Shown here one piece after another: positions 15,355 through 64,000 of a DNA stretch of 64,000 nucleotides. Position 1 is the first letter of the stretch, and every line of letters begins with the position of its first letter. The notes under the pieces are model-generated. The model had not been told where the DNA came from. It ran no database searches and saw only the letters and a list, made by a program, of their open reading frames with translations. The DNA comes from Chamaelirium japonicum (Eukaryota > Streptophyta > Magnoliopsida > Liliales > Melanthiaceae), in assembly GCA_947650365.1 (NCBI GenBank), contig OX393555.1:11079840-11143839 (forward strand). Direction: 5' to 3'. The position numbers and the translations under genes were made by a program.

Positions 15355-15978
15355 AGAAGCAGGGACGCCCGGTGGAGGAGCCATATATACCTCCTCTGAG
15401 AGATCATCGTGGAGAAATGCGTTGGTCACATCCATCTGATGTAGAGGCCACCCTCGAGCAACTACAACAGCTAAAAGGGTGCGAACGGTAGTCATCCGAG
15501 CCACTGGAGCAAACGTCTCCTCGTAGTCAATTCCATACTCCTGGGAGAAATCACGAGCAACAAGGTGCGCCTTATGCCGCTCAATGAACCCATTAGGTCG
15601 AGTCTTGATCTTGAAGATCCATTTGCAGCTAACATGAACCACGCCAGTGGGACAAGGAACCAAATCCCATGTCTGAGTCCGCTGAAAGTCCTCAAGTTCG
15701 ACTGTCATAGCATGTCGCCACTCTGGGTGTACAACTGCCTCACGATACGACTGGGGCTCCCGGTAGGTGTGAAGAGCTGTAAGAAAGGCCTGATAGGACA
15801 GAGAGTAAAAGACAACAACAGAGTGTCCAGAAGTGTCAGGAGAAACAAGAGTAAACACAGAGTAACCAAACCTGTCAGGGGAGTAGTTATATCTGTCAGG
15901 AGGGTGATGTTCGCGTGAAGGGTAGCGCCGAATAGGACCAGGATCCACGGCCGGAGAGTTGGGAGCAGCTGCAGGCAA
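15307..15978 (-). pseudogene. Copia reverse transcriptase, N-terminal half
   Basis: A 223-residue frame contains WDLVPCPTGVVHVSCKWIFK and MDVTNAFLHDDLSEEVYMAP, the fingers and first palm motifs of Copia RT. It ends at RRAIYGLK where the frame breaks. It aligns residue by residue with the same region of the plus-strand copy near base 900-1270. The break before the YVDD motif shows that it is non-functional. Confidence 0.92.
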
Positions 15979-17019
15979 AGTAGTGCCGGTGGAGACAATC
16001 TCGGTGGGAGGAACTGTGGAGCGACGAACGTAGACACGTGTGACAGGTGGTGGTGATGGAGATGACGGAAAAGAGGGAGGTGGCGGGGGGGGGGAGACAA
16101 GGGAGGTGGAGGTGGAGACGAGGGAGGTGGAGGTGGAGACAGGGAAGGCGAGGAAGGTAGAGGAGGCTCAACCGAGAAGGTGGGCGTGGGAGCAAGATAC
16201 GGAGATAGTAAGGGGATGGTGAGTGGGGGTGACGGCGTAGAAGATAACGTAGGTGGTGAGGGAAAATCCCGGGACTCAGTGGACAAGTACGGGACATGCT
16301 CTACAAAGGAGACATGACGAGAGACACGGATCCGGCAAACCAAGGGATCATAGCACCGATAGCCCTTGTGCTCCCGACTGAGTCTTAAGTGAACACACCT
16401 AACAGACCTAGCAGAGAGTTTGGTGCGCACATGGGGAGGGAGGAGGACGAAACACGTGCACCCAAAGGTACGAAGAAAAGAGTAGTTAGGAGATGTGGAG
16501 TAAAGCCGCTCGTACGGGGAAACATCAGAAACAGAGGAGGACGGAGTGATGTTGATGAGGTGAACAGCGGTCAGGACAGCTTCCGCCCAGTAGGAATGTG
16601 GAACAGAAGCAGACAGAAGTAGAGCTCGTGCTGTCTCGAGGACATGACGATGTTTACGCTCGGCGACTCCGTTTTGTTCATAGGTGTGGAAACATGACTG
16701 TTGGTGAAAAGTGTCGTGAGTCTGAAGGATCTCACGCATCTCAAAGGAGATACTCCTGGGCACAATCAAACCGAAAAGTCTTAATGTGCCGACCAAACTG
16801 AATGTGAAGCATAGTAGTGAAGGTCCTGTAAATATGAAGAATCTCGGAACGGCGACGCATAAGATAGAGCCAGGTGCAGCGGGAGTAATCATCTATGAAG
16901 CTCACATAATACAAAAAACCAGTAAAAGAGGCAACTGGAGCAGGACCCCACACGTCAGAGTGCACGAGATCAAAAGGGGCGCTAGAACGGAAAACACTAG
17001 TAGAAAAAAGAAAGAGCAA
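15705..17019 (-). pseudogene. Copia integrase, frameshifted
   Basis: Two overlapping minus-strand frames together show the integrase core: FDLVHSDVWGPAPVASFTGF, then FIDDYSRCTWLYLMRRRSEI, then, after a frame break near 16750-16890, the tail with VAERKHRHVLETARALLLSA and a proline-rich linker. The core contains the first two acidic catalytic positions of the DDE triad. The frame change in the core means the enzyme is dead. Confidence 0.9.
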
Positions 17020-34184: not shown

Positions 34185-34800
34185 TGTGGGGGGAAATTTC
34201 CGAGCCGCCTTGATCGGGAACCCCGCCCCACAGCCTTGATTAAATTTGATGGTTTGTAGAGTTAGAGAGATGGGAGAGTAGATAGAGAGAGTAAAGAGTG
34301 ATGACACGAGGATTGATGACGGAGTTCAGTCTTACGACTTACGTCTCCGGGCGAGAGGTGCCACCTGATCTTCACTATAATTTGAATATAAAGGGTTGAG
34401 CGTTCTCTCGACAGGCCGAGAGAAGCTTCGTACAGTGGGGTTGCACGGAGCAACTAGAAGAGAACAAGGTAGGGAGAATAGAGGGCTCTGGCTCTGGCTC
34501 TGGATCCTCTCTTCCTCTGATCGAATGACCAACCCCCCTCCTGGATGCCTTGGGGGTCCTTTTATAGCGTAGGCACGTGCCCGATATGGCAGTGATGATG
34601 TGGCGCTGATGACGTGGCACTGGTTCTGGGCCTCCTTACTGGGCCCTTATTGGGCCGTTGTTCGGGCCCAATAAGGGGTAGGGCTTGATCTGCGAGCCTC
34701 GTAGAGTGGGCCCATGTGAGCCCAGGCGGGCTTACCCATTTGGGCCGTTGTGCGGGCCCATGCTGCTTTGATCTGGTCCGGTACAATTTTTGCACCCACA
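34185..34800 (-). repeat. 3' LTR of the gag-only element
   Basis: Plus-strand view begins TGTGGGGGGAAATTTCC and ends TTTTTGCACCCACA. It shares CGACAGGCCGAG with the solo LTRs of related families in the window. Confidence 0.93.
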
Positions 34801-34929
34801 GTTACCCCCTCCCAGTCGGGTCAGGACCCCCTGGGTCGGCTGGGATTCCATGGTGCAAACGCTTTAGGATCCTGGCGCGGTTGGCGAGGGTTGTCGGTGC
34901 CGCGGTTCGTATTAGCAGAGCCTTCTTCC

Positions 34930-35270
34930 GCCGATGCCGAGACCCTTTTTGGCGCGAGCCAAAAAGTCTCGGTTTTGCGAGGGGGTGTTTCCGAAAAAAC
35001 AGTGCGTTTTCCGACCGAGTGGATACCGAGAGGGTACCGAGTGCATACCGAGTGGGTACCGAGAGCATACCGAGTGGTTACCGAGACCCTTTTGGTGCAA
35101 GCCAAAAAGTCTCGGTTTTGCAAGGGGGTGTTTCCGAAAAACCAGTGCGTTTTCCGACCGAGTGGATACCGAGAGGGTACCAAGTGCATACCGAGTGGGT
35201 ACCGAGAGCATACCGAGTGCATACCGAGAGCATACCGAGAGGGTACCGAGAGCATACCGAGAGCCTTTTG
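34930..35270. repeat. 11-bp TACCGAG repeats and an enclosing duplication
   Basis: A block of roughly 140-150 bp starting with AGCCAAAAAGTCTCGGTTTT occurs twice (about 34940 and 35100). Each contains a run of 11-bp units of the form TACCGAGNGNN. Confidence 0.85.
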
Positions 35271-35387
35271 GTGAAAGAAAAACTTTTTTATCTTTTTCCT
35301 TTCTTTCTTTCTCTCTTTCCTTTCTTTGCTTCTCTCTTTCTTTTTTTGTTTTTCTCTTTCCTTTCTTGTTTTTGTTTTGCTTGTGCT

Positions 35388-36470
35388 CTACACAGGAGAA
35401 TGGGGCCCGGCAAGTGAATGGCGCATCCCGTGAGGCTCTCTTTCCATTCTCTCTCTCTCTCCTTTTCTGTTTTGGCTCACATTCACGTGAGACTGCAGCC
35501 CGTTCAGCCCGTGCAGCCCGCTATCTCTTTCCTTTATCTCTCTCTCTTTCCTTTCTCTCTCCCTCTGTTTCTCCTTCACGTGAGAGCGTGAGAGAGCAGC
35601 TCTCTGTTTTTTTTTTTTCTTTTCTTTGTTGTTGGCGCAGTACAGCAGCGGCAGCGTAGAGGCCGCCCACGCTTCGGCGGCACATCCGAGTCGTAAGGGA
35701 GGGCCGGCTTCTCCTTCCTCGACCGCACCAGCCCGCCTGCCATGCTCCCTGTTGCTGGACAGAGCGAAGGCGAGGGCGGGGGAGCCGGTCATCATGACCT
35801 TCAACTCCTCGAAGGTGACCATCCCGTCGCCGTCCCGATCCACGCCGTCGACCATCTTCCTGCACTGCGCGACCGTTGCGGCCTCCCCGATGCTGCGGAG
35901 CACCCGGGCGAGCTCCTCGGCGGAGATGGAGCCGTTGCGGTTGAGGCCGAAGATGGAGAAGGCGTGCCACAGGTCCTTGAGCGCCGCCGCCGGGTTGACC
36001 CTGGCGGTGTTGAGGTCGACGAACTCGCGGAGGCTGATGTAGCCGTCGCCGCCGGAGTCGGCCTCCGACATCATCCGGCGTAGATCCTCCTCGGACGCCG
36101 GGTGGCCGAGGCTTTCGAAGATGGCCGCGAGCTCGGAGGAGGAGATCTTGCCGTCTCCGTTGGAATCGAACTTGATGAATACCCGCTCCATCTCCTCCTC
36201 CGGAGTCGAAGACGATGTCGGCGTCGCTGAAGCCGACGACGGAGAGCCCGGCGTCGACGGAGTCTCTCCTTCTTTCTCCGTTGTCTTGACCGGCACTGGG
36301 TGGAGGAGCACACGTGGGTCTTCATTGCCGGGTGGAAGAGCCCGTGTGGGGGGAATGGGAGTCGGATCTCCCCCCTCCACCTCCTCTTCGTTGCTGCGCA
36401 TAACGAGGGAACACATGTGGGGTTCGTCGTCGCTAGGTGGATGAGCGCGTAGGGGGGGTTGGAGACTCAA
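35388..36470 (-). CDS. Calmodulin-like EF-hand protein gene carried by the LTR element
   Basis: Calmodulin-like proteins bind calcium through EF-hand loops and pass the signal to targets in cytosol or nucleus. This 360-residue frame has four EF-hands. Loop 1 is DSNGDGKISSSE (about 102-113), loop 2 DSGGDGYISLRE (138-149), loop 3 GLNRNGSISAEE (175-186) and loop 4 DRDGDGMVTFEE (211-222). Loop 3 has G instead of D at position 1 and probably binds calcium poorly or not at all. Normal family members of this type end soon after the fourth hand; here the frame runs another 130 residues of arginine-rich and low-complexity sequence, so the native stop seems lost. The first 90 residues are disordered and possibly not native. 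There is no intron. It is GC-rich and encoded in the sense direction of the element, between array and 3' LTR, so it is best read as a transduplicated host gene. Expression is unknown. Confidence 0.8.
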   Translation of the reverse strand: MSLQPPLRAHPPSDDEPHMCSLVMRSNEEEVEGGDPTPIPPTRALPPGNEDPRVLLHPVPVKTTEKEGETPSTPGSPSSASATPTSSSTPEEEMERVFIKFDSNGDGKISSSELAAIFESLGHPASEEDLRRMMSEADSGGDGYISLREFVDLNTARVNPAAALKDLWHAFSIFGLNRNGSISAEELARVLRSIGEAATVAQCRKMVDGVDRDGDGMVTFEELKVMMTGSPALAFALSSNREHGRRAGAVEEGEAGPPLRLGCAAEAWAASTLPLLYCANNKEKKKKKQRAALSRSHVKEKQRERERKEREIKERDSGLHGLNGLQSHVNVSQNRKGERERMEREPHGMRHSLAGPHSPV

Positions 36471-36709
36471 GAGATATCGGTTTTGAGGCCGGGCTGGTTG
36501 GTTGATCAGTTTTCAGGGTGCATGAAACCCGTGTCAATCGGAAGACCGTAGCTCCATTGAGTTGAAACCGATCAGTTTTGAGGTGATTACTACCGATCGG
36601 ATCTGATGTAGAGAGGTTGGATGCCAATCAGATCTGAGGGAGAGAGGTTAGCTGCCTACTCGATCTGAGGAAGATAGAGGCGTTCGGGAGGGTTCGTCCG
36701 ACCCCCCTC

Positions 36710-37435
36710 CTCTCTCCGTCCGGGTCGGCTGCGCGATGTGAGGTGTACCGTCATTACTGTGTAATTATTCTGATGCTAGTCTTCGAAGAAAAAGACCTTG
36801 AGACCCTCTGACAGTCATAACTTTTCATACGCATGTCGGATGAATGCGTATAAGGTGCCATTGCGTAGGCATCGAAGAAACGGTCAAAGTGGACGTGAAA
36901 CATTGTTCGCCTTGACGTGTAACTTTTCCGTTGCTCAGCTTCGGAGATAAGGCACTCGAAAACCTCTGACAGCCATAACTTTTCATACACGTGTCGGCTC
37001 AACGCGTATAAGGTGCCGTTGTGCCGGTGCCGAAAAACCGATCAAAGTGGATGTGGAACATCGTATACCTTGACGAGTAACTTTTCCGGTAATCACCTTC
37101 ATAAAGAGATGACTCTAAAGAACACGTTGACCGAGTGTCCTACGCGCGTCTTGAAGAGGCATCGATACGCGGTAACTCATTCGTCTCTGTTCGACACCCA
37201 ACTGCACCTAGTTACTGTATTCACTAGGGACTGCAGTCGGGCCCTAGTGATGACGCGGCGGTTACCACGAGTCCACCCCCAGATAAGAAGGAGGAATTTT
37301 GCTTGTGAAGTTTGTACGGCCAACTCAATAGGTTAAGTTGAGATGCTATTCAACCAACCCAATGGAAGATAACTCTTCGTCTTTGGCTGATCCTTGCGTG
37401 CGAATGCCACTTGAATTGGATTGACTAATAAGTTT
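36710..37435. other. Spacer of the gag-only element
   Basis: Contains a diverged duplication: CATAACTTTTCATAC occurs near 36828 and 36972, each followed by a GTCGG, GCGTATAAGGTGCC motif. No coding signal. Confidence 0.5.
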
Positions 37436-38515
37436 GGATGGCGCCGAGCACCCCCCCTCTCAGTTTTCCGTCGAAATCGAGGGGTGGGCTGCTGACGGTG
37501 TGCCGTCGCACCCTCCCCACTTGGTTTTTCTGCGAAACCGAGGGGGGGCTGCTTGTTGATGTCGACACATACCCCCTCTTGGTTTTCTGACGAAACCGAG
37601 GAGTGGTTGTAGCTGATGGTGTGCCGTCACCCCTTCCCCACTCGGTTTTTATGCGAAACCGAGGAAGGGCTACTTGTTGATGGCGACACACATCCCCTCT
37701 CGGTTTTCTGACGAAACCGAGGGGTGTGCTGATGGTGTGCCGTCACCCCCTCCCCACTCGGTTTTTGTGCGAAACCGAGGGAGGGTTGCTTGTTGATGCC
37801 GACACACACCCCCTCTCGGTTTTCTGACGAAACCGAGGGGTGTGCTGCTGATGGTGTGCCGTCACCCCTTCCCCACTCGGTTTTTGTGCGAAACCGAGGG
37901 AGGGTTGCTTGTTGATGCCGACACACACCCCCTCTCAGTTTTCTGACGAAACCGAGGGGTGTGCAGCTGATGGTGTGCCGTCACCCCTTCCCCACTCGGT
38001 TTTTATGCGAAACCGAGGGAGGGCTGCTTGTTGATGCCGACACACATCCCCTCTCGGTTTTCTGACGAAACCGAGGGGTGTGCTGATGGTGTGCCGTCAC
38101 CCCCTCCCCACTCGGTTTTTGTACGAAACCGAGAGAGGGTTGCTCGTTGATGCCGACACACACCCCCTCTCGGTTTTCTGACGAAACCGAGGGGTGTGCT
38201 GCTGATGGTGTGCCGTCACCCCTTCCCCACTCGGTTTTTGTACGAAACCGAGGGAGGGCTATTTGTTGATGCCGACACACATCCCCTCTCGGTTTTCTGA
38301 CGAAACCGAGGAGTGTGCTGATGGTGTGCCGTCACCCCCTCCCCACTCGGTTTTTGTGCGAAACCGAGGGAGGGTTGCTCGTTGATGCCGACACACACCC
38401 CCTCTCGGTTTTCTGACGAAACCGAGGGGTGTGCTGCTGATGGTGTGTCGTCACCCCTTCCCCACTCGGTTTTTGTGCAAAACCGAGGGGAGGCTGCTTG
38501 TTGACGCCGACACCC
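37436..38515. repeat. Tandem array of about 118-bp units with paired hairpins
   Basis: About nine units. Each has two short inverted repeats: CCTCTCGGTTTTCTG with CGAAACCGAGG, and CACTCGGTTTTTGTG with CGAAACCGAGG. The spacer GATGGTGTGCCGTCACCCC recurs in all. Units differ by point changes and small indels. Confidence 0.92.
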
Positions 38516-38999
38516 CATTATTGGGGCTGCTAGAAGAGGCCAAAAAGTGTCGGTATTGAAAATAGTGTATTTTTCGAATTTCAGCCCCATTTGAAACCGA
38601 CACTTTTTTGGTAAAACTCTGGCGCGCGGGGATGTCGGCGAGGGACAACGCTATATTTGAGGGGGTTTCTTAGAGATGATCTAGAATGACGCCGCTTGAT
38701 GGCCAGCCGGTCTTCATCCAATGTATTACCGTACCTGGTTACTGTATTCACCAGGTACTACGGTCGCGCGAGGGTGTTGACTTGGCCAGGATCAAGGAAG
38801 CACCATTTTATCCTGTGTTACCCACCGTCGACTGCACCAGTGTGGAGACACGCACTGACAGAGTCAGACCAACCACCCCCTGACCGGCTTGGAACCGTTA
38901 GTCGTCGAGAAAAGGTGATGGCCATTGACAATCTAATGCTTAGACCTGAGTGACAAGACTAAGCCTGGACTTTTGATCAAATGCCAATACGTCGGCGAC

Positions 39000-39712
39000 G
39001 ACGTCTCGGACCTTGTCTTCGAATGCCGAGAGCTGGGCCTTGGGCTTGTAGAGTGTTAAGGCGTTGGTCGCCTCGAACTTTGTCTTCAAGTGCCAAGGGC
39101 TGGGCCTTGGGCTTGTAGAGTGCCGAGGCGCTGGTCGCCTCGGACTTTGTCTTCAAGTGCCAAGGGCTGGGCCTTGGGCTTGTAGAGTGCTGAGGCGCTG
39201 GTCGCCTCGAACTTTGTCTTCAAGTGCCAAGGGCTGGGCCTTGGGCTTGTAGAGTGCCGAGGCGCTGGTCGCCTCGGACTTTGTCTTCAAGTGCCAAGGG
39301 CTGGGCCTTGGGCTTGTAGAGTGCCGAGGCGCTGGTCGCCTCGGACTTTGTCTTCAAGTGCCAAGGGCCGGGCCTTGGGCTCGTAGAGTGCCGAGGCGCT
39401 GGTCGCCTCGGACTTTGTCTTCAAGTGCCAAGGGCTGGGCCTTGGGCTTATAGAGTGCCGAGGCGCTGGTCACCTCGGGCTTTGTCTTCGAGTGCCAAAG
39501 GCTGGGCCTTGGGCTTATAGAGTGCCGAGGCATTGGTCACCTCTGACTTTGTCTTCGAGTGCCAAGGGCTGGGCCTTGGGCTTGTAGAGTGCCGAGGCGT
39601 TGGTCGCCTCGGACTTTGTCTTCGAGTGCCAAGGGCTGGGCCTTGGGCTTATAGAGTGCCGAGGCGTTGGTCGCCTCGGACTTTGTCTTCGAGTGCCAAG
39701 GGCGTCTCCTTA
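39000..39712. repeat. Tandem array of 67-bp units, about 11 copies
   Basis: The core CTGGGCCTTGGGCTTGTAGA and GAGGCGCTGGTCGCCTCGG recur every 67 bp. Eleven TTGTCTTC words were counted. Confidence 0.92.
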
Positions 39713-39784
39713 AACTTGGTGCATGTCAAAGCGACGTTTGCCTTGGACTCATTCTCTTCGCCTCGGATAAGTATAGTTGATAGT

Positions 39785-40563
39785 TTAGCTTGACCTGGAT
39801 TGTCAGGAGCATTTTTATCTGACTTTCGCCTTGAAAGGGCGTAGCCGAATTGCCTTCGAGCTTCCGACTTGAATGGGCGGAATCGAAGGTCTTTGGTTGA
39901 CCTGGGTTGCCAGGAGTCTTTTATCGGACTTTAGCCTCGAGAGGGCGTAACCGGATTGCCTTCGAGCTTCCGACTTGAACGGGCGGAGTCGAAGGTCTTT
40001 GGTTGACCTGGGTTGCCAGGAGCCTTTTAATCGGACTTTAGCCTCGAGAGGGCGTAGCTGAATTGCCTTCGAGCTTCCGACTTGAATGGGCGGAATCGAA
40101 GGTCTTTGGTTGACCTGGGTTGCCAGGAGCTTTTTAATCGGACTTTAGCCTCGAGAGGGCGTAGCCGAATTGCCTTCGAACTTCCGACTTGAATGGGCGG
40201 AATCGAAGGTCTTTGGTTGACCTGGGTTACCAGGAGCCTTTTAACCGGACTTTAGTCTCGAGAGGGCGTAACCGAATTGCCTTCGAGCTTCCGACTTGAA
40301 TGGGCGGAATCGAAGGTCTTTGGTTGACCTGGGTTGCCAGGAGCCTTTTTATCGGACTTTAGCCTCGAGAGGGCGTAACCGAATTGCCTTCGAGCTTCCG
40401 ACTTGAACGGGCGGAATCGAAGGTCTTTGGTTGACCTGGGTTGCCAGGAGCCTTTTTATCGGACTTTAGCCTCGAGCGGGCGTAGCCGAATCGCCTTCGA
40501 GCTTCCGACTTGAATGGGCGGAATCGAAGGTCTTTGGTTGACCTGGTTTGCCAGGAGCCTTTT
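39785..40563. repeat. Tandem array of about 107-bp units, about 7 copies
   Basis: The core GACCTGGGTTGCCAGGAGC, then TTTAGCCTCGAGAGGGCGTA, CTTCGAGCTTCCGACTTGAA and GGGCGGAATCGAAGGTCTTT recur about every 107 bp up to the region just after the gag gene. Confidence 0.92.
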
Positions 40564-40726
40564 TTTTTTGCCTTAATATGGTGGAATCGAAGTTCGGGAG
40601 ATTTGATTTTGAGAAAAAAAGGACACTTTATTGATATAACAAAGTTGCAGTTACACTTTTTCAGAGGTTGCCCCGCGGCATCCACGTATTACATTGACTT
40701 TCTTTTCTCCACTGCTGCAACCTCTC

Positions 40727-42379
40727 CTACTCTCGACCTAGTTCCTTATTAGCGAGGTAACCATCGAGCCGCCCTTCTTGGATCAGGTCTTCGATGTGAT
40801 GCTTTAGCTTTCGACATGTAGAGGTTGTGTGGCCATGGCTGCGATGAAACTCACAGTAGGCCGTCGTATCTCCCGCCTGGTCGGAATTTGGAGGGAGAGG
40901 CTGTGGCCACTTGCAAAAGGGCTCGTTCTGTAGATAGGCGAAGATGTCTTCAATGGAGGTGTTCAACTCAGTGAACACCCTTTGCTCCCTTGGAGTTCGT
41001 CTCTTTTCCGCTGGAGGGGCTTTTGGATCTTCATTGTACCTTTTGGCCTGGGCCTTTTGGTCGGACGCAGCATGGACAGACTTCTTGTAGCGTGCTTCAT
41101 TAGGGGCTTCATCATCCTTCTTATGTCGGGAGTCACGAGACTCGCGGGGCTCGCGTAATCTTCTGGCCCGCTGATTGTCTTCCACCTCTATCTCCCGCTG
41201 TACGCGCTTGAACATCGCTTCCAGGTTACTGGGAGGATGTCGGATGAAGTCGGTGTAGACGTGGAGCTCTGGCCGGATAGCATTCTGGAATGCCAGCACG
41301 ATGGCCTCCTCATTCTGGGACCGACCGGTGAGCTCAGAGTGCTCATTACGAAACCTCATTGTGAAGCTCCTTAGAGACTCATCGGAGCCCATCTTCAGCC
41401 TGTAGAGTGTATCCAGCTTCTTTTCCGGCTTTAAGTTTAGCCGATAATGGTCCATGAAAAGTTCAGCCAACTCTTTGAAGGTGGCCACCGTACCGGTAGG
41501 CAGCGTGTGGTACCAGTCGAGGGCAGGTCCCTCGAGACTTCCTGCGAACATACGACAAAGGATATGATTCTCATACTCATACGGCGTCAGGGCCTGCTTG
41601 TAGGCTAGGATATGGAGAGCAGGGTCTCCCTTGATGCAGTTAAACTTTGGCAGGCTCAGTGTTCGCCATCCCATAGGAAATGGTGTTGCAAGAACCTTGG
41701 GATGCAGTGGCCCCACCGAGGTGATTAGCTGCCTACGGTCTTGATGTCGGCGTCCCACATCGGCAGTATGCCTTAGTTGGTTGAGCAGCTCACGGGCATC
41801 TGTTGCTTTCGCGTGCGAAGGGATAGAATGTCTAGTAGATCCCGTTGACTGAAGTGATCCTTCTCCACGATAGCTGGGCGCACCGTTGACATCGAGGCGA
41901 TCCCACACTGTTTGCCTTGGTGCTTGTGTGGATACCTGACGCATCTCGGTACGCGGCACATGTGGTTTTTCGAGGTGATGACTCACGGCTGGGCAAGTCC
42001 TTGGTTGGTCTTCATCAGTAGCTAGAGAGTTGTGGGCCACAACCCCTGCTCTTTCAACCGCCTTCTTTAGGGAATCCCTCTCTTGCTCGAGGGCTGTGTT
42101 CCTCTTGAGGAGGTTCAGCAGCTGGAAATCAGCAGTCGAAATTTGGTATGTAGCTGAACCGTTATCTCCTTGGGTGGCGTGCTCTTTGCCAGATCGACGC
42201 CTCGGGGATGACGGGTCTCGCCGATCGCTGTGCCCTTCTGGATGGCTGCCTTGCGGCCCCGGCCGCTCCCGAACATTTCTTCGGTTGGTTGCAACCGAGA
42301 CTTCTTGTTCTTCTTCGATCAGCATATCATTTGTTCGTTTAGCACCCGCCTTTGGTGGGTTGGTGCTGGCCTTCACCAT
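40727..42379 (-). CDS. Gypsy-type Gag polyprotein (550 aa)
   Basis: Gag forms the virus-like particle in which element RNA is packaged. The frame starts MVKASTNPPKAGAKRTNDML and has a charged, disordered first 200 residues. A retrotransposon-gag core then contains FNCIKGDPALHILAYKQALT, MFAGSLEGPALDWYHTLPTG, LFMDHYRL and SLRSFTMRFRNE (about 245-355). The C-terminal zinc-binding-like YCEFHRSHGHTTSTCRKLKH is at about 510-530. It ends shortly after with ELGRE and a stop; in autonomous relatives the frame would continue into protease. The uninterrupted 1.65-kb frame, with decayed neighbours all around, suggests recent function. The primer site lies about 130 bp upstream in element sense. Confidence 0.93.
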   Translation of the reverse strand: MVKASTNPPKAGAKRTNDMLIEEEQEVSVATNRRNVRERPGPQGSHPEGHSDRRDPSSPRRRSGKEHATQGDNGSATYQISTADFQLLNLLKRNTALEQERDSLKKAVERAGVVAHNSLATDEDQPRTCPAVSHHLEKPHVPRTEMRQVSTQAPRQTVWDRLDVNGAPSYRGEGSLQSTGSTRHSIPSHAKATDARELLNQLRHTADVGRRHQDRRQLITSVGPLHPKVLATPFPMGWRTLSLPKFNCIKGDPALHILAYKQALTPYEYENHILCRMFAGSLEGPALDWYHTLPTGTVATFKELAELFMDHYRLNLKPEKKLDTLYRLKMGSDESLRSFTMRFRNEHSELTGRSQNEEAIVLAFQNAIRPELHVYTDFIRHPPSNLEAMFKRVQREIEVEDNQRARRLREPRESRDSRHKKDDEAPNEARYKKSVHAASDQKAQAKRYNEDPKAPPAEKRRTPREQRVFTELNTSIEDIFAYLQNEPFCKWPQPLPPNSDQAGDTTAYCEFHRSHGHTTSTCRKLKHHIEDLIQEGRLDGYLANKELGRE

Positions 42380-42508
42380 CGAGCGTGTTGATGTCGGCGT
42401 GATGCAGGCGTTGAGGTTGATTTGGAGGAGGACTTGTGGCTCGTCACCACAAGTTGAATAGGAGTCGGTAGAGGTGTGGGTAAGACCTCTATCGATATCC
42501 CACAGACG

Positions 42509-42519
42509 GCGCCAAAGAT
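42509..42519 (-). other. Primer binding site of the gag-only element
   Basis: On the minus strand TTTGGCGCCGTC follows the 5' LTR by a few bases; TGGCGCCGT is a frequent primer-site start in plant Gypsy elements. Confidence 0.8.
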
Positions 42520-43135
42520 TGTGGGGGGAAATTTCCGAGCCGCCTTGATCGGGAACCCCGCCCCACAGCCTTGATTAAATTTGATGGTTTGTAGAGTTAG
42601 AGAGATGGGAGAGTAGATAAAGAGAGTAAAGAGTGATGACACGAGGATTGATGACGGAGTTCAGTCTTACGACTTACGTCTCCGGGCGAGAGGTGCCACC
42701 TGATCTTCACTATAATTTGAATATAAAGGGTTGAGCGTTCTCTCGACAGGCCGAGAGAAGCTTCGTACAGTGGGGTTGCACGGAGCAACTAGAAGAGAAC
42801 AAGGTAGGGAGAATAGAGGGCTCTGGCTCTGGCTCTGGATCCTCTCTTCCTCTGATCGAATGACCAACCCCCCTCCTGGATGCCTTGGGGGTCCTTTTAT
42901 AGCGTAGGTACGTGCCCGATATGGCAGTGATGACGTGGCGCTGATGACGTGGCACTGGTTCTGGGCCTCCTTACTGGGCCCTTATTGGGCCGTTGTTCGG
43001 GCCCAATAAGGGGTAGGGCTTGATCTGCGAGCCTCGTAGAGTGGGCCCATGTGAGCCCAGGCGGGCTTACCCATTTGGGCCGTTGTGCGGGCCCATGCTG
43101 CTTTGATCTGGTCCGGTACAATTTTTGCACCCACA
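42520..43135 (-). repeat. 5' LTR of the gag-only element
   Basis: 616 bp, about three differences from the 3' LTR. On the minus strand it starts TGTGGGTGCAAAAATTG. Confidence 0.93.
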
Positions 43136-62955: not shown

Positions 62956-64000
62956 TCACTTTTTTTTTTTTTTTTTTTTTTTTTTGGGTACATTGGATGG
63001 GTCATAACTATATGACCAGGATATCTTCAGATACAAGGGCCTGTAGCCCAGGTGGGAAGTTCTGCTCCCAGTACCCACCAACCCCAGAACGTCTGGCCTG
63101 TTGAGCCAACCAATGAGATGCCGAATTGGCCGCCCTAGGAACCCACTGTATGACTACATCCTCAAGTCGTTGCCAAGTATGCATACACGACCATAGCACA
63201 TCCCGTTGCTCCTCTGATCGAGCCACCCCCAACACGAGCATATCCCGAGCGAGCCTGGCATCTGTCATAACAACCACCTTTCCACATTCTCGTTGGTGGA
63301 GCTCCTCCAAGGCGCCCTTAATTGCCCATACCTCCGCTAGAAGTGGGGAAGAAACCTGGATAACGAACGAACATGCCGCTAGCAACGAGCCCATTGGGCT
63401 AGTAAGGACCCACGCTCCACTAGCCACCTCCCCCTCAGCTCGGAACGCCCCGTCTGTCCATACCAGAAATTCTGGTCGACGCCTCGCCACCCGATGACCC
63501 CGTATCTCCATCTGAGCCTGAACACAGCACCATAACTCCTCGAGACCCGACTTGACCGCAGCCTCCACCCGACGAACGGGTGTCCGGAACAGAGTATCGC
63601 AACGAAGTTTCCACAAGACCCACAAACACATTGCCAAGATCTCACCGGGTAATGGAGTCCTCTGAACCAAATCGGCCTTCGATACAATGAGAAGGTGCTC
63701 CCAATTTTTAAACTCCACTCCTGTCACCTGGCCCACCTGGACCCAGAAATCCTGAGCACCAGGACAATCCCAAAATACATGCTGAATGTCTTCCTCCGGC
63801 TCTTGGCATCGTGGACACACTACAAACCCCCACCGTAACCTCCTTCGTAGAAGAGAGGCCGTGGGAAGGGCCCCATGCCAAACCTTCCACAAAAACACCT
63901 TAACACGGGGTGGGATTCGCAGTTGCCAAACATGGGCACCCTCCCAATCCGATTGGTGTGCAGAAGAGGACAATTGCTCATCAAGAAGAGTACATAGGAG
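62956..64000 (-). mobile_element. L1-type LINE 3' end, running off the window
   Basis: Minus-strand LINE with its poly-A tail seen as a run of about 26 T ending near 62985 and coding sequence directly inside it. The 5' part is outside the window. Confidence 0.88.
63008..64000 (-). CDS. LINE ORF2 C-terminus: zinc-binding domain and RNase H
   Basis: The frame is open from the window edge to the stop at 63008. The zinc-binding region has CPRCQEPEEDIQHVFWDC (about residues 53-70 counted from 63973). A plant-type RNase H follows with VWTDGAFRAEGEVASGAWVL (D about 174), LLAEVWAIKGALEEL (E about 214), VVMTDARLARDML (D about 238) and a C-terminal SASHWLAQQARR. All catalytic acidic positions are present. 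This end is uninterrupted, so this LINE is much better preserved than the one at 47-51 kb; whether its RT is intact cannot be seen. Confidence 0.92.
   Translation of the reverse strand, partial: LLCTLLDEQLSSSAHQSDWEGAHVWQLRIPPRVKVFLWKVWHGALPTASLLRRRLRWGFVVCPRCQEPEEDIQHVFWDCPGAQDFWVQVGQVTGVEFKNWEHLLIVSKADLVQRTPLPGEILAMCLWVLWKLRCDTLFRTPVRRVEAAVKSGLEELWCCVQAQMEIRGHRVARRRPEFLVWTDGAFRAEGEVASGAWVLTSPMGSLLAACSFVIQVSSPLLAEVWAIKGALEELHQRECGKVVVMTDARLARDMLVLGVARSEEQRDVLWSCMHTWQRLEDVVIQWVPRAANSASHWLAQQARRSGVGGYWEQNFPPGLQALVSEDILVI

Follow-up and report, generated by a model that had tools for sequence, protein, structure and literature searches.

The window, a 64,000-nt stretch of the Chamaelirium japonicum genome, lies on contig C7 of a repeat-rich assembly (G000; 1.52 Gb in 3,253 contigs) and contains an 8,951-bp gag-only retrotransposon with long terminal repeats (LTRs). 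The element and all of its features run on the minus strand, which makes 43135-42520 its 5' LTR and 34185..34800 its 3' LTR. Each LTR is 616 bp long with the duplication GCATA outside it, and the pair differs by three transitions and no gaps (divergence 0.5%). A primer-binding-site-like sequence, TGGCGCCGT (42506..42514), was read 5 nt past the 5' LTR and presumably matches the 3' end of plant tRNA-Asp; a polypurine tract, GGGAGGGGG (34805..34813), stands directly before the 3' LTR. Gag is encoded by a 550-aa open reading frame (ORF) at 42379-40727, for which Pfam Retrotrans_gag scored above the cut-off (E 4.7e-09) and Ty3_capsid below it. A Pfam scan of the 94 stop-to-stop frames of at least 50 aa in the element returned gag, EF-hand families and a few marginal hits (E 0.008-0.05), and no pol family. 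The original prediction for this stretch had described the LTRs with about three differences, the duplication, the primer site, the purine tract, the 550-aa gag and the lack of pol, and had named pol in another frame as a finding that would overturn it; the descriptions were borne out, and none of the scanned frames held pol.

Between gag and the 3' LTR lie three tandem arrays, with periods of 107 bp (39812..40646), 67 bp (38868..39837) and 116/119 bp (37449..38590, limits approximate), followed by a conserved left flank (36790..37440; 46 matches from the best 40 of 1,074 candidates in the genome) and a variable cargo slot (35346..36748, limits approximate and set where copies cease to align). 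In the window, the slot holds a 517-nt fragment of a calmodulin-like (CML) gene (35750..36266, 96% identical to the donor gene, L063) within a chimeric ORF at 35388..36470, which is 360 aa long when read from TTG and 342 aa when read from the first ATG at 36416. An A12 run (35607..35618) follows the segment joined to the CML fragment, with purine-rich linkers next. The four-EF-hand ORF foreseen in sense orientation to gag is on the same strand as gag, but its loops are altered relative to the donor, EF3 at positions 1 and 3 and EF2 at position 3. Judged by content, the element belongs to the TR-GAG type, defined in the accessible text of PMC6022998 as an LTR element whose interior codes for Gag alone (or for GAG and AP): it has the LTR pair, the duplication, the primer-binding-site-like sequence and the polypurine tract, and Gag is its sole element domain. 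The presence of gag sets it apart from LARDs, which have no coding domain, and its three arrays before the 3' LTR are a trait of Retand/Tat elements.

Using the LTR as a query, we found at least 40 matches of 96-100% identity (the best 40 of 3,753 candidates), which indicates a large family. A paired-LTR set was then defined as 11 further loci where two LTR hits fall on one strand within 10 kb of each other, and both LTRs were present in all 11. Kimura two-parameter distances within the LTR pairs were 0-0.008 in 12 of 12, window included, and the LTRs of L012 and of L015 were identical within each pair. These values, with the 0.5% divergence in the window and the other copies in the genome, agree with the young gag-only family that had been proposed. 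Perfect 5-bp duplications accompany 11 of the 12 pairs; none was visible at L018.

Gag is under purifying selection between copies, as had also been suggested. Seven copies compared against the window carried 122 nonsynonymous (N), 113 synonymous (S) and 3 stop changes as distinct substitutions, versus 151.3, 78.5 and 8.2 expected, and a synonymous count that high was reached in 0 of 1,000 simulations. L015 and L016, where gag is mostly missing, were excluded from this test; in L018 and L019 it is mostly or wholly missing. The frame is open over its full length in five of the seven copies, while L009 has one stop and L017 has frame breaks and two stops. Among the best 150 of 17,732 candidate matches to the gag core (93-100% identical), the longest open frame was 777 aa, and thus no gag-pol fusion was found among them, although a less similar partner, or one with pol in a frame of its own, may exist. 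By eye, 17 of these 150 matches have an in-frame stop, and all of the listed stops are TAG.

The family carries its variable slot of host-gene fragments after the tandem arrays and ahead of the 3' LTR. The EF-hand part of the window element was covered at 95-100% in L009, L012 and L019, and at 0-21% in the other eight of the 11 paired-LTR copies, which hold other content while their neighbouring parts still match; the EF-hand segment, whose presence in every copy the original prediction had proposed to test, is thus confined to part of the set. To describe the other contents, 19 non-CML slots (the eight paired-LTR copies and eleven left-flank matches, the three CML-bearing copies being left out) were scanned with Pfam in frames of at least 75 aa whose three commonest residues made up less than 55%. 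Sense fragments included Exostosin_GT47 in four ORFs (singly confirmed in L010, L059 and L060), an O-methyltransferase with its dimerisation domain (E 1.4e-18) in L014 (nearest solved structures, caffeic acid O-methyltransferases), SOR_SNZ/PDX1 (E 1.6e-77; placed in L053 by eye), Ribosomal_S5_C (uS5) in L016 (E 2.8e-17), AdoHcyase (SAHH; E 1.1e-11) and, more weakly, DIOX_N (L018) and DUF936 (L059). In antisense we found F-box-like (E 1.2e-08) with KIB1-4 (E 8.2e-14) in L015, PPR_2 (E 2.5e-13; placed in L053 by eye, a single L053 frame scanned alone giving nothing), and weaker matches to NF-Y/histone (L018) and a 3'-5' exonuclease (L013). Several slots combine more than one donor, namely L010 and L060 (GT47 and HD-ZIP-like), L053 (PDX1 and PPR) and L018, with piece names partly given by eye. 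The HD-ZIP-like piece of L010 and an AT-hook-like piece in L051 are labelled by eye only; Pfam found nothing in either. The CML, uS5 and HD-ZIP-like pieces each recur at many places in the genome.

Two further arrangements were noticed among the slots. At C1:22113987-22114633, uS5 and CML fragments adjoin, which suggests another two-donor slot. In L016, a glutamine-rich ORF (YDYYGQQQPQQQ) upstream joins uS5 without a purine linker, perhaps as two fused host mRNAs.

The origin and fate of the CML cargo were followed through the genome. A genome search placed the CML stretch in 28 loci within elements of this LTR family, window included, with LTR matches adjoining all 28. Outside elements there is one CML locus without LTRs (L047/L063), plus weaker paralogs. 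L063 is an intact parent gene of the kind that the original prediction had proposed to look for; its coding sequence has an ATG and a stop, and its reading frame has no intron. All 28 copies begin 54 nt past the donor ATG. Group II copies (n = 19) extend through the donor stop and about 130 nt of the 3' untranslated region (UTR) and end at an A-run, where they meet an A-rich flank that is also present in L050. Group I copies (n = 9), the window lineage, break off 8 nt short of the end of the donor coding sequence, where a different piece with a terminal A-run of its own is joined on; all of them share three changes, D to G in EF2, D to G in EF3 and D to N in EF3.

Results showed that the CML cargo evolves as under neutrality, without sign of purifying selection. 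The distinct substitutions of the 28 copies (N 74, S 35, stop 1) were close to the 69.6, 39.1 and 1.3 expected when the same base changes are placed at random, with the donor as reference and donor-branch changes included. Pairwise N:S was 104:32 in group I, against 394:128 sites, and 1495:797 in group II, a ratio that alone resembles mild constraint, without support from the spectrum-matched test. As read from its sequence, the CML ORF is a truncated host-gene fragment, not a captured working gene. Of the proposed capture of a calcium-sensor gene, the host-derived CML sequence therefore stands, but what was captured is only a fragment that starts 54 nt into the coding sequence, has altered loops and is neutral. 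A separate local CML gene, which had been raised as an alternative, was rejected since the piece sits in 28 elements with LTRs. At L061 (C4:87082000-87087000), a family copy starts on the opposite strand to a CML paralog gene of 79% identity and about 1.2 kb away from it.

Three cargoes were traced to host genes outside elements, with 96-98% identity: CML (L063), uS5 (L066) and the AT-hook-like piece (C6:39620959-39622124). The AT-hook-like cargo of L051 is unbroken over 529 nt, whereas its donor, 98% identical, is interrupted at query 1-452 / 451-510 by an intron of roughly 0.65 kb bounded by GT..AG, and the spliced donor, CCCTGG/GCTC, equals the cargo sequence. A paralog on C7 with 74% identity has its break at the identical query position. 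Ten listed places carry this cargo without the intron, nine matching all 529 nt and one 305-529, and two of these (L051 and C11:29268183) were confirmed in the family by nearness to left-flank matches. The absence of the donor intron exactly where the cargo is continuous shows RNA-mediated capture for this cargo. Its 5' edge appears to coincide with an acceptor-like TAAG of the donor, and it leaves at GAAGAG, entering a GA linker. The uS5 cargo of L016 and its 98% donor agree up to the base that precedes GTAAAA, and its match to a paralog runs up to GTGAGT; this boundary fits capture from RNA. At C4:59951998-59965435, four AT-hook cargo matches on one strand have an exact spacing of 4,303 bp and look like a tandem array with cargo.

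The slots also share a strongly strand-biased composition. Over 22 slots (33,872 nt), sense purine tracts of at least 15 nt covered 2,737 nt versus 155 nt of pyrimidine, and single-base shuffles gave about 9 nt and 4 nt. Sense A-runs of at least 9 numbered 22, spread over 15 of the 22 slots, and T-runs 0; GAGAGAAAGGAAAG was present in 21 of 22. Several copies have left parts in common and then diverge (L016/L017, L056/L059, L050/L057 and L010/L056/L060). A right-hand piece common to L052/L060 and an internal piece common to L019/L056 are exceptions to this tendency of the slots to differ more nearer the 3' end.

We consider it probable that this is a young gag-only family with a hypervariable cargo slot filled by template switching onto packaged host mRNAs, and we infer that capture proceeds through reverse transcriptase. 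A Gag particle, with pol supplied in trans by a partner, would package host mRNAs beside the element RNA, and minus-strand synthesis would enter from the 3' LTR. At purine- or A-rich stretches, the reverse transcriptase could then switch to a host mRNA and later return to element RNA further upstream, the jump sites being element linkers, poly(A) or A-runs, and GA-rich spots in the host mRNA. Copies with common linkers would recombine and shuffle cargo, and the window cargo would be a CML cDNA fragment drifting as a passenger. A stronger form of this proposal, which we put forward tentatively and regard as rather doubtful, is that the slot is dedicated to gene capture: purine linkers would act as landing pads where reverse transcriptase crosses between element RNA and host mRNAs packaged with it, perhaps doubling as extra plus-strand primer tracts, and the selected Gag would package host mRNA, giving continuing exon shuffling at the RNA level.

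Several observations weigh against capture by template switching. Intron loss was shown for one cargo only, and the CML donor frame is intronless. The sequence CTGGTCTTCAAAGAAGG after the uS5 boundary could not be placed as an exon in the 2.5 kb of donor DNA that follows, where its best match was 13 nt beside AG with two bases off. The donor CML 3' UTR itself has A7CAAGTC at the junction, so that a true poly(A) tail is unproven. The slots are akin by descent, which makes the purine and A-run counts partly non-independent, and no pol-bearing partner was found among the best 150 of 17,732 gag-core candidates. Antisense cargo (F-box/KIB of L015, PPR and the weaker NF-Y and exonuclease matches) would not be expected from minus-strand switching in its simple form; antisense RNA, plus-strand switching or DNA-level events may be required.

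Other explanations account for parts of these data. That slot diversity arose mainly by recombination among old members, each holding one ancient capture, with capture now rare and inactive, is somewhat unlikely, although it fits the recurrence of cargo pieces in differing combinations and the many places that hold CML, uS5 and HD-ZIP-like pieces. However, elements with identical LTRs (L012, L015) differ in cargo, and the 96-98% identity of three cargoes to their donors indicates that these captures are not ancient. Capture at the DNA level, by gap repair, ectopic recombination or nested Helitron or MULE insertions of genomic fragments, would fit the two cargo orientations, but we think it improbable: the AT-hook cargo lacks exactly the donor intron, A-runs are confined to the sense strand, and no terminal-inverted-repeat or Helitron ends were noticed, though no dedicated search was made.

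The earlier proposal that one element transduplicated one CML gene and kept it as a functional calcium sensor was rejected and is now highly improbable. In its favour, the window EF-hand frame is open, and the CML region of the 28 copies has one premature stop and frame-breaking gaps in two (L037, L045); against this stand the spectrum-matched neutral expectation, the missing donor start codon, calcium-loop residues altered in nine of nine group I copies and the lack of CML in 8 of 11 paired-LTR copies. Collapsed or chimeric repeats could mimic slot variability in a repeat-rich assembly of so many contigs, but such an artefact is scarcely credible here given the perfect duplications at 11 of 12 LTR pairs, identical cargo junctions at many separate loci, and LTR matches beside all 28 CML-bearing loci.

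Gene capture by plant LTR elements has mostly been catalogued case by case, and the way in which a fragment entered is seldom traceable. In the accessible parts of the published accounts, such capture is well known: 425 maize LTR elements hold captured genes from at least 189 captures (PMC2774510), and 672 rice and 1,343 sorghum LTR-captured genes are counted (PMC3726574), host fragments lying inside LTR elements as they do here. The maize study, in its available text, reported none that combined fragments from two or more standard nuclear genes (PMC2774510), whereas L010, L060 and L053 combine more than one donor (names partly by eye). Maize Bs1, an LTR element with pieces of three host genes, likewise carries several fragments, but is described as one chimeric arrangement (PMC13317346), while the present family has differing fragment sets at one slot. 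TR-GAGs share the LTRs, the sole Gag domain and recent mobility; long tandem arrays and a variable host-fragment slot appear in none of the TR-GAG descriptions compared (PMC6022998). Retand/Tat elements, as excerpted, also have tandem arrays in an extended 3' region ahead of the 3' LTR and include non-autonomous members (PMC11963269), but the present element has no pol, and sense and antisense host fragments are seen in place of the antisense TRP28-type ORFs reported there. Transduced genes are usually sense, according to the portion available of PMC7264820, unlike part of the present cargo. Pack-MULEs and gene-carrying Helitrons resemble the family as shuffling vehicles with family-wide carriage of host fragments, as far as the text at hand describes them (PMC13317346), and differ in that this is an LTR element with RNA-level capture. 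What looks new in this gag-only family is its family-wide mosaic slot; searches of the open-licence literature, outside which most subscription journals lie, yielded no prior description of one.

In this one young family, many captures can be studied at a single fixed position, and the three traced cargoes are still 96-98% identical to their donors. Its readable linkers and spliced junctions open template switching, host mRNA packaging and the part played by purine tracts to direct tests, and the selected gag against the neutral CML cargo provides an internal contrast. A family with a dedicated slot, if that proposal is true, would amplify combinatorial cDNA mosaics.

Further repeats and ORFs were noticed around the element in the window. 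Direct repeats of 91-94% identity around it (31207-31476/44712-44981, 32598-32897/50702-51001 and 43135-43380/51585-51830) suggest nesting in older repeats. By eye, a Copia-type pol ORF of 764 aa lies at 48-2342 on the plus strand, with a related shorter ORF at 15705-16892 on the minus strand, and an ORF at 63008-63973 on the minus strand is like the RNase H-like end of a LINE.

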